Assembly: GCA_902601475.1 (NCBI GenBank)
Contig: CACKNK010000002.1
Coordinates: 1 to 64,000 of the forward strand
Length of the DNA: 64,000 nt
Source: an uncultured SAR86 cluster bacterium
GTDB taxonomy: Bacteria > Pseudomonadota > Gammaproteobacteria > Magnimaribacterales > D2472
Direction: 5' to 3'
Within the stretch, counting starts at the first letter, position 1. Each line of letters begins with the position of its first letter. A program made the position numbers and the translations under genes. Positions 40,741 to 45,777 of this stretch are shown here, one piece after another. The notes beneath the pieces are model-generated. The model saw only the letters and a program-made list of their open reading frames with translations, did no database searches and was not told the origin of the DNA.

Positions 40741-40796
40741 TCTTGTTTGAAAAAATCCTGCATGCTGAAGTCAATTTTAAGATGTATAATTTAAAC

Positions 40797-40962
40797 ACTG
40801 GTTCATTTGCCAATACATTCGATATCTTTGAACCGATACTTAAATGATAGGCAATATTCCACTGTCGATGTTGTGCAATACCTTAGGGAAGCCTGATTCG
40901 ATAAGAGCTTTGCCACCTGGACTTTCGGTTCAGGAAAAAATGTATAGCGGTGAATTGGTTTT
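40797..40962 (+). ncRNA. ssrS: 6S RNA
   Basis: It sits exactly where 6S RNA lies in other gammaproteobacteria, between zapA and fthC. A perfect -10 box, TATAAT (40785-40790), precedes it. The ends pair: CTGGTTCA (40798-40805) with TGAATTGG (40951-40958), then ATACATT (40813-40819) with AATGTAT (40939-40945), leaving a large central bubble. A conserved-type hairpin, CCTGGAC-TTTCG-GTTCAGG, resembles the late 6S stem. A run of T follows the closing stem. 6S RNA mimics an open promoter and holds sigma70 RNA polymerase in stationary phase. Ends are approximate to about five bases. Confidence 0.8.
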
Positions 40963-41018
40963 TAGCCTCCGTAATCGTGAAATCTGATTTAAGAAAATCA
41001 CAACTTAATCGGAGGCTA
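40963..41018 (+). promoter_or_regulatory. Long-range hairpin around the fthC start
   Basis: TAGCCTCCG (40963-40971) and its exact complement CGGAGGCTA (41010-41018) flank the proposed GTG start of fthC at 40977, so a nine-base-pair stem would enclose the start codon. It begins right after the 6S RNA end. It could act as a processing site between the 6S RNA and fthC mRNA or as a translation switch. Part of the right arm is coding sequence. Confidence 0.45.
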
Positions 41019-44215: not shown

Positions 44216-44851
44216 ATGAGTGACGCAAAGGTGCAGGTTGCTAAAAAGGCGTTTGAGGAAATGGCTCCTCAAATAAATAAAGAATCTATATTAGGAATTG
44301 GAACCGGATCCACAGTCAATTGCTTCATTGAGATCTTAAAACAAAGCAATGTTCAGTTTAAAGGTGCCGTATCTAGCTCTGAGGCTTCTACCCTACTTCT
44401 TCAAGAGTTTAATGTAGAGATTTTTAGTCTTAATGATGTAAATGAAATTCAGTTTTATATCGATGGAGCTGATGAAGTTGACCCATCACATAACTTAATT
44501 AAGGGTGGCGGCGGAGCTCACACCAGAGAAAAATTGGTTGCCTCGGCTTCGAATCAGTTTATTTGTATTGTAGATCAATCAAAGCATGTTGAATGTCTAG
44601 GAGACTTTGGTGTTCCTGTTGAAGTTTTAATCGAAAGTAGAAGTTTTGTTTCAAGAGAAATTGTAAAACTAGGAGGAGTTCCAACTTATAGGAGCGGTGT
44701 CATTACAGATCAAAACAATCATATCATTGACGTTTCAAAGCTTGATTTATCAAATCCAAAAGACATGGAAATTCAAATAAATTCAATACCAGGTGTTGTT
44801 GAAAATGGGATATTTGCTATCAGAAAACCAAACAAGGTTTTAACTGCTTAA
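44216..44851 (+). CDS. rpiA: Ribose-5-phosphate isomerase A
   Basis: Interconverts ribose 5-phosphate and ribulose 5-phosphate. IGIGTGSTVNCFIEIL, YIDGADEVDPSHNLIKGGGGAHTREKLVA and EVLIESRSFV are standard RpiA motifs; the catalytic Asp and Lys/Glu are intact. The 211-residue length is close to normal. A short AT-rich gap separates it from ilvA. It ends four bases into the convergent glutathione-peroxidase gene. Confidence 0.96.
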   Translation: MSDAKVQVAKKAFEEMAPQINKESILGIGTGSTVNCFIEILKQSNVQFKGAVSSSEASTLLLQEFNVEIFSLNDVNEIQFYIDGADEVDPSHNLIKGGGGAHTREKLVASASNQFICIVDQSKHVECLGDFGVPVEVLIESRSFVSREIVKLGGVPTYRSGVITDQNNHIIDVSKLDLSNPKDMEIQINSIPGVVENGIFAIRKPNKVLTA

Positions 44852-45390
44852 CTATTAAGGTCAGTTGTTATTTTATAGGTTAGTTCTTCAGAACTTGGTT
44901 TAACTTTTGATCGAAAACCCTCTACAGTCAAACCATCTTTTGAGATTAAGTATTTATTAAAATTCCAATTGGGTTCCATGCCAGAAGCTTCAGCAAGTTT
45001 CTTAAAGAATGGTAGTGCTTTGGAGCCCTTCACTTTACTGGTCGTTAGCATAGGGAATGTTACGCCGTATTCAGTTGAGCAAAACTCAGAGACCTTGGAA
45101 TCATCTCTAAATTCTTGATAGAAATCTCTTGATGGGACACCTAAAACGACGAAACCCTTTTCTGAGTATGTTTCATAAAGTCTTTGTAACTCAGTATATT
45201 GATTTGTATATCCACATCTACTCGCAACGTTTACAACAAGAACTGATTTTCCGGTTAACTCACAGAGATTTAGCTTTTCATCAGAATCAAGCAACCTGAT
45301 TTCATGATCTAACAATTCTGAGCAGGCACTTACAAATTGGGTGATCCCAAAAAAGCACAGTGATATTAGTAAAGCTAGTACTAAGCGCAT
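44848..45390 (-). CDS. Glutathione-peroxidase family thiol peroxidase, exported
   Basis: A signal peptide (LALLISLCFFGITQFVSA) leads into the peroxidase fold. VVNVASRCGYTNQY carries the peroxidatic Cys and EPNWNFNKYLI the Trp and Asn of the active site. The loop PSRDFYQEFRDD replaces the subfamily's usual PSNDFGGQEP, so the substrate pocket has drifted. Such enzymes reduce peroxides with glutathione or thioredoxin; the signal sequence puts it in the periplasm or inner membrane. A 33-residue ORF ends ten bases upstream on the same strand, and the RNA element at 45.5 kb may regulate it. Confidence 0.85.
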   Translation of the reverse strand: MRLVLALLISLCFFGITQFVSACSELLDHEIRLLDSDEKLNLCELTGKSVLVVNVASRCGYTNQYTELQRLYETYSEKGFVVLGVPSRDFYQEFRDDSKVSEFCSTEYGVTFPMLTTSKVKGSKALPFFKKLAEASGMEPNWNFNKYLISKDGLTVEGFRSKVKPSSEELTYKITTDLNS

Positions 45391-45399
45391 AGGGAAATA

Positions 45400-45501
45400 C
45401 TATACTACAGGTGCAACAGCATAAATACTTGAAAGAAATAGAGTTACTAAAGTAAGTACCTCTACAGATTCAATGATTTTTTTCTTATGTCTATTGCTCA
45501 T
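45400..45501 (-). CDS. Hydrophobic small ORF upstream of glutathione peroxidase
   Basis: An ATG at 45501 opens a 33-residue frame with a charged start (MSNRHKKKIIES) and a membrane-helix-like end (VLTLVTLFLSSIYAVAPVV). The stop lies nine bases before the peroxidase ATG. Charge distribution and spacing fit a small membrane protein or a leader peptide in the same transcript. There is no Shine-Dalgarno sequence, and the terminator at 45509-45533 is directly upstream, so a read-through or separate promoter would be needed. I cannot exclude a chance ORF. Confidence 0.35.
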   Translation of the reverse strand: MSNRHKKKIIESVEVLTLVTLFLSSIYAVAPVV

Positions 45502-45508
45502 ATTTTTT

Positions 45509-45533
45509 AAAAAAGGAGGGCATTGAGCCCTCC
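45509..45533 (-). terminator. Strong intrinsic terminator
   Basis: Read on the minus strand, GGAGGGC (45533-45527) and GCCCTCC (45521-45515) form a seven-base-pair, GC-rich stem with a five-base loop, followed by six T. It ends the candidate small RNA. On the plus strand the stem is followed by ATTATTT, a weak terminator. It is the only textbook intrinsic terminator I noticed in the window. Confidence 0.85.
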
Positions 45534-45584
45534 ATTATTTCCAGAGAATGTCAGCAATACATAGGGGGAGAGGAGTGCTGACAA
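45509..45584 (-). ncRNA. Candidate small RNA or attenuator leader with anti-SD loop
   Basis: Transcribed on the minus strand from about 45584. Hairpin 1 has perfect arms TGTCAGCA and TGCTGACA (45583-45576 and 45556-45549) enclosing a 19-base loop that includes CTCCTCTCCCCC, the complement of a purine-rich ribosome-binding site. A short linker, TTCTCTGGAAATAAT, leads to a terminator hairpin and six T. Promoter, stem-loop and terminator make a compact unit of about 76 bases. The shape recalls rhizobial alpha-r14/cuckoo RNAs that carry CU-rich anti-Shine-Dalgarno loops, but I know no homologous family in gammaproteobacteria. It may act in trans on mRNAs or in cis on the genes at 45501-44848. Confidence 0.65.
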
Positions 45585-45589
45585 GTATT

Positions 45590-45617
45590 ATTATATGTAT
45601 TTATATTTAAATATCAA
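45590..45617 (-). promoter_or_regulatory. Near-consensus sigma70 promoter for the small RNA
   Basis: On the minus strand, TTGATA (45617-45612) and TATAAT (45595-45590) are 16 bases apart: five and six matches to the -35 and -10 consensus. The predicted start near 45584 coincides with the first base of hairpin 1. The rest of the gap, 45618-45777, is very AT-rich. It holds a plus-strand TATAAT at 45729-45734, a possible -10 for the fatty-acid gene, but no good -35. I see nothing else there. Confidence 0.7.
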
Positions 45618-45777
45618 TACTATTTATAAATAATTTTTATTAATTTTAAGATATAAACTCTATGAATTAATCAGCAATATTAAGATATGTATAGTGTATT
45701 TTCAGTATATTTAACAAAATAATGCCTATATAATTTCATCTCTATTCAGAGAATTTACAGAAAATAAGAGGTATTTA

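Follow-up and report, generated by a model that had tools for sequence, protein, structure and literature searches.

Does the minus strand at 45509-45617 of the window, the 64,000-nt stretch of SAR86 DNA that we analysed, encode a small regulatory RNA, and if so, what might such an RNA control? A sequence-only reading had proposed a near-consensus promoter, an 8-bp hairpin with a CUCCUCUCCCCC loop and a terminator on this strand, and all of these elements could be read directly. The promoter (TTGATA-16-TATAAT, 45590..45617, minus strand as for all elements of the RNA) consists of a -35 element at 45617-45612 and a -10 element at 45595-45590 with a spacer of 16 bases, and precedes a candidate small RNA of about 76 nt (45509..45584). 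Its 5' hairpin (45549..45583) is built from the stem arms UGUCAGCA (45583-45576) and UGCUGACA (45556-45549), which enclose the 19-nt C-rich loop CUCCUCUCCCCCUAUGUAU (45557..45575), the predicted pairing site. The linker CUCUGGAA (45539..45546) is followed by an intrinsic terminator (45509..45533), supported by a terminator scan and by alignments, in which GGAGGGC-UCAAU-GCCCUCC occupies 45533-45515 and six U run to 45509. In many relatives the U-tract is poorer, and the terminator is therefore probably leaky. The predicted fold of the 76-nt RNA has an energy of -25.1 kcal/mol (z = -4.46), a stability that none of 200 shuffled sequences equalled. In a scan of 19 kb for sigma-70-like sites, the promoter of the RNA was the top match (11/12) and its terminator came first in the terminator listing; promoter-like sites as a class were not in excess over shuffles in the same scan. 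Elsewhere in the window, at 40792-40965 on the plus strand, a 6S RNA (Rfam RF00013) lies directly before a 5-formyltetrahydrofolate cyclo-ligase-like gene at 40950, an arrangement that corresponds to the usual ssrS-ygfA order.

The RNA gave blastn matches across the family to which the window's own genome (G000, an assembly of 1.35 Mb) belongs within the SAR86 order, hereafter f1. From 23 sequences we built a covariance model, with which the window copy scores E 3e-17. This model had matches in 129 of 199 genomes from the SAR86 order; at E<=0.01 it recognised the RNA in 95 of the 103 sampled f1 genomes, three of these 95 matches being weak. Clear relatives were also present in family f4 and in one genus of family f3, and among 274 genomes sampled class-wide the model returned only two weak matches outside the SAR86 order. 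None of the viral contigs that were searched carried the exact loop core. In 57 distinct sequences both helices are 95.7% paired, and at 11 of 15 pairs both partners have changed, a level reached by none of 500 shuffles and a signal that was lost when the pairing partners were slid against each other. Compensatory changes affect seven of the eight pairs of the 5' stem, whose variants include GUCAGCA/UGCUGAC, AUCAGCA/UGCUGAU, ACCAACA/UGUUGGU and GCUAGCA/UUGCUAGC. The loop core CUCUCCCC is near-invariant, and in nearly all copies the loop reads CUCCUCUCCCC(C) or a close variant. The sequence-only reading had staked its proposal on promoter, stem pairing and terminator being kept together in related genomes, and had suggested a covariance search. 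Since these parts are conserved jointly in relatives, we conclude that the RNA is a real family of the SAR86 order that is under strong selection. It is also unlisted and appears to be new, as had been supposed: Rfam gave no match at the gathering threshold, and at E<=10 only sub-threshold matches at chance level. With its own promoter and terminator, a conserved structure and a conserved pairing site, the RNA has the general traits of trans-acting base-pairing sRNAs, and its nearly invariant C-rich loop is, judging from the alignment, the likely pairing site.

Several genera contain a second copy in which operator-promoter, hairpin, loop and terminator are as at the main locus. Second copies lie convergent with the exonuclease I gene sbcB and/or beside a pseudoazurin gene (L025, L114; also L112, L115, L120 and L176), and in some genomes between the two. 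The promoter is kept in both copy classes and in family f4, and the near-invariance of the loop core likewise extends across both classes. Alignment of 49 distinct promoter copies revealed a near-palindrome with the consensus TATTGATAaTtnAtTATAAaTA that covers the -35 element and the spacer (45598..45630 in the window, minus strand), with a TTATAAA half-site upstream. Across 25 genomes this operator pattern was found almost exclusively at RNA copies and pseudoazurin genes; pseudoazurin genes with the same palindromic operator are those at L193, L194 and L182 (genomes G007, G010 and G013). In G007, a complete genome, the three top-scoring sites, well above shuffles, belong to pseudoazurin and to the two RNA copies, A and B. 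The operator marks a very small regulon that includes the RNA copies and pseudoazurin. Because this regulon pairs a copper electron carrier with the peroxidase encoded downstream of the main-locus RNA (see below), it suggests that the inducing signal is redox or copper.

Which mRNAs might the loop address? We ranked the loop's complementarity to gene fronts, with gene starts called by a simple script. In G007, the leader of the gene assigned as proteorhodopsin by Pfam Bac_rhodopsin carries TAATAGGGGGAG, a perfect 12-nt complement to the loop that ranked first among 1247 gene fronts. The proteorhodopsin leader of G005, a genome from a different genus, is otherwise different in sequence and contains ATAGGGGGAG, a perfect 10-nt complement that ranked first among 972 genes, drawn from 926 kb (70% of the genome) plus the proteorhodopsin locus. 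In all of G007, ATAGGGGGAG occurs three times, namely in the two RNA copies and in the proteorhodopsin leader. When the predicted energies were combined over 725 orthologue pairs from the two genomes, proteorhodopsin was the best pair at -48.2 kcal/mol; for 232 shuffled loops the best pair averaged -35.3 kcal/mol (sd 2.6), and none of the 232 reached -48.2. The gene was first found in G007, so that fairer tests come from G005 and from the shuffles, and shared ancestry of the two leaders cannot be fully removed from the comparison. The second-best conserved match is a 73-aa membrane protein that ranks fourth in both genomes (G007 contig C1 at about 272788, orthologue in G005 at about 276931, both on the plus strand); here the complementary segment AUAGGGGGG is the ribosome site itself, and a Pfam search of the protein gave no match. 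Predicted pairing singles out a small number of conserved targets, with proteorhodopsin in first place. The loop is too invariant for co-evolution with the leader to show in a clade-by-clade comparison.

The proteorhodopsin leaders themselves share a layout. In 29 of 33 f1 leaders a G-run lies at about -30 to -53, apart from the AGGAG-type Shine-Dalgarno sequence (SD); in genera g3 and g8 SD and G-run are one and the same, the g4 leader has no G-run, and g5 leaders have only about 6 nt in common with their own loop. No G-run was present upstream of the SD in the genera in which the RNA was not found (f2; g12, g16 and g19 of f3), while in g15, a genus of f3 with an RNA-like hairpin beside polA, the leader contains an upstream AGGAGAG. 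In the predicted folds the G-run is a pseudo-SD whose partners are ACUUC or GCUCC segments, which could alternatively close the true SD. When the G-run was held open, SD accessibility fell from 0.35 to 0.09 in G000, from 0.56 to 0.06 in G005 and from 0.80 to 0.20 in G017; this drop was predicted for g1, g2, g5 and part of g6, and an SD-closing fold was not predicted for the leaders of g7 and g9. These folding data suggest that the leader is a switch. Since opening of the G-run lowers SD accessibility in the model, occupation of the G-run by the loop would be predicted to repress translation; the sign of the effect, probably repression, is the least certain step of our interpretation. Within about 60 nt upstream of proteorhodopsin, the leaders L330-L359 and L409-L433 have in common a G-run, a hairpin and a separate SD, an arrangement that by itself resembles an RNA switch. 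An upstream open reading frame was considered as the cause of the G-run and rejected, most genera having, by eye, no start codon after it.

A switch of this kind would work without an sRNA, and the G-run could simply be a pseudo-SD; some relatives that lack the RNA have G-rich proteorhodopsin SDs as well (GGGAGAG). It is thus conceivable that the RNA acts in trans on other, true targets and that its match to proteorhodopsin is a coincidence, the G-run serving as a ribosome standby site or as a switch in cis. Perfect matches of 12 and 10 nt exceed any SD-like core, however, and neither the first rank in two genera nor the failure of all 232 shuffled loops is what such a coincidence would lead one to expect, so that we regard this explanation as rather unlikely.

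The gene context of the RNA raises a second question, namely whether it acts in trans at all. Straight past its terminator in the window starts a conserved small gene (45400..45501, minus strand) for a peptide of 33 aa, MSNRHKKKIIESVEVLTLVTLFLSSIYAVAPVV, followed by a glutathione peroxidase-like gene (44848..45390, minus strand; Pfam GSHPx, 2e-27). An equivalent of the small gene, of 24-33 codons, follows the RNA in 52 of 52 main-locus f1 copies examined, and the peroxidase gene lies 2-53 nt past it in 51 of these (the next gene in L009 was not resolved). The codon-position entropies of the small gene (0.95/0.53/1.34) indicate that it is coding. The peptide consists of a single hydrophobic helix with an end motif like S-x-x-A-I-x-P-I/V and gave no match in a Pfam search. 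In family f4 (L163 and L212), the same promoter precedes a shorter hairpin, whose loop contains UCUCCUCUCCCCC; the terminator comes next, then a pair of small genes, the peroxidase gene and a convergent rpiA, an order that matches f1. The locus therefore predates family f1. Among the genomes examined from f2 and f3, the peroxidase gene directly follows an L,D-transpeptidase gene, and no RNA was found there. The RNA at the window locus, which had been taken for a stand-alone transcript, is accordingly the 5' part of an overlooked peptide and peroxidase unit; the description as stand-alone holds for the copies elsewhere in relatives.

So constant an association invites the explanation that hairpin and terminator are merely a 5' leader or attenuator of the peptide and peroxidase genes, in which weak pairing of the loop with GGAGGG tunes readthrough. 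CUCUCC in the loop could indeed pair with the terminator arm GGAGGG, and the CUCUGGAA linker is conserved at the main locus only. Yet the second copies, which have neither the small gene nor this linker, retain hairpin and loop, and the pairing between loop and terminator amounts to just about 6 bp, a need that the conservation of the loop exceeds. Since the two loci share the loop despite different downstream genes, we argue for action in trans and consider a role in cis only to be improbable.

Broad repression of many mRNAs through their SD sites, as had been proposed from the sequence by analogy with the cuckoo RNAs, would agree with the presence of CUCC and UCCUC in the loop and with the several mRNAs targeted by related C-rich-loop RNAs (PMC3771888), but is very unlikely because at the gene starts of G007 the real loop formed no more strong duplexes than its reversed or shuffled versions, which match start regions equally well. 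The GGGAGAGG pattern before ATG was scattered across 37 genomes, with counts little above the control and no conserved gene recognised among them.

How does the RNA compare with known ones? The idea that gammaproteobacteria have no equivalent is contradicted by sX13 of Xanthomonas, an Hfq-independent RNA with C-rich loops, one of them containing UCCCCCU, that targets G-rich motifs near gene starts (PMC3771888). Both RNAs are gammaproteobacterial and share a C-rich loop. However, sX13 has three stem-loops and is located at polA, whereas the SAR86 RNA, which matches no known family, is made up of a single C-rich hairpin and a terminator and is followed by the small gene and the peroxidase gene; the window locus lies at the peroxidase gene, and only the g15 copies adjoin polA. 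There, a hairpin that shares the stem and has a CU-rich loop of the CUCUCUCCCC type (L159 1443-1512, minus strand; L160 1438-1507, plus strand; L162 1435-1504, minus strand) is found just downstream of polA and convergent with engB, at the same polA-downstream place as sX13 and in the polA-engB site of Spot 42 and ErsA. It scored weakly with the covariance model (28-30 bits), its promoter is not evident and it has no family match; Spot 42 and ErsA act together with Hfq. It is a possible counterpart of sX13, Spot 42 or ErsA. The alphaproteobacterial cuckoo/CcsR RNAs, which are co-transcribed with the small protein gene ccaF1 (DUF1127) in a stress context (PMC10253847), resemble the SAR86 RNA in combining a C/U-rich loop with a small protein gene, but there the RNA is preceded by that gene, whose DUF1127 product binds RNA, whereas in SAR86 a membrane-peptide gene lies downstream. 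As the cuckoo/CcsR (alpha-r14) loop motif CCUCCUCCC is absent from the SAR86 RNA and there is no upstream DUF1127 gene, the likeness does not extend to membership. VcdRP of Vibrio cholerae combines, in one transcription unit, a protein of about 29 aa with a run of C residues by which it pairs to start regions (PMC8672173); VcdP precedes the pairing site inside one RNA and Hfq is present, whereas the SAR86 gene lies past the terminator and Hfq was not found. Measured against dual-function RNAs of the VcdRP and SgrS type, the conserved gene is 3' of the terminator, and a shared RNA would depend on readthrough.

Models for Hfq and ProQ found nothing in 25 genomes of the SAR86 order, while control genomes were positive. 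As no Hfq was found in these genomes, any action of the RNA should be Hfq-free, and by analogy it should work like structured, Hfq-independent C-rich-loop RNAs such as sX13. In kind, it is a C-rich-loop base-pairing RNA and joins a known group; as a family it appears to be new, an Hfq-less variant that is linked to a peroxidase and a small membrane peptide and for which a tie to proteorhodopsin is predicted. From the sequence-only reading, the new family and the C-rich loop as likely pairing site have been retained, and general anti-SD action, uniqueness among gammaproteobacteria and stand-alone status at this locus have been given up.

Taken together, our preferred interpretation, to which we assign a probability of about 0.6, is that the RNA is a trans-acting, Hfq-independent SAR86 sRNA of a redox/copper regulon that tunes, and probably represses, proteorhodopsin. 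The regulated promoter, with its palindromic operator over the -35 element, would drive transcription of the RNA; most transcription would end at the terminator and yield the RNA of about 76 nt, while readthrough would produce an mRNA for the membrane peptide of about 30 aa and glutathione peroxidase. The rigid hairpin would display the C-rich loop CUCUCCCCCUA, which in the cell may pair with G-runs in a small number of mRNA leaders, and foremost in that of proteorhodopsin (GGGGGAG, some 30-50 nt ahead of the start codon). Such pairing would remove the G-run from its partner in the leader, and the freed anti-SD segment could then close the real ribosome site, so that switching on the redox/copper regulon would lower proteorhodopsin translation. 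In its full form, in which SAR86, apparently without Hfq and ProQ, uses a loop-presenting sRNA of a redox/copper regulon (peroxidase, peptide and pseudoazurin) to switch proteorhodopsin translation through competition between pseudo-SD G-run, anti-SD and true SD, the proposal is tentative, with chances that we would put a little short of even.

The open-licence literature that we searched describes no SAR86 sRNA and no control of a proteorhodopsin by an sRNA or other RNA. We know of no described mechanism by which the uncultured, streamlined cells of SAR86 control the pump and, to our knowledge, RNA control of a proteorhodopsin has no earlier case. The findings add an unannotated family of proteins of about 30 aa that is linked to a peroxidase, and suggest that a lineage in which neither Hfq nor ProQ could be detected has kept base-pairing sRNAs. 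SAR86 bacteria are among the commonest in the ocean, are abundant in its sunlit waters and were the first source of proteorhodopsin; a conserved RNA that fits the proteorhodopsin leader is a directly testable candidate regulator of their light-driven pump.
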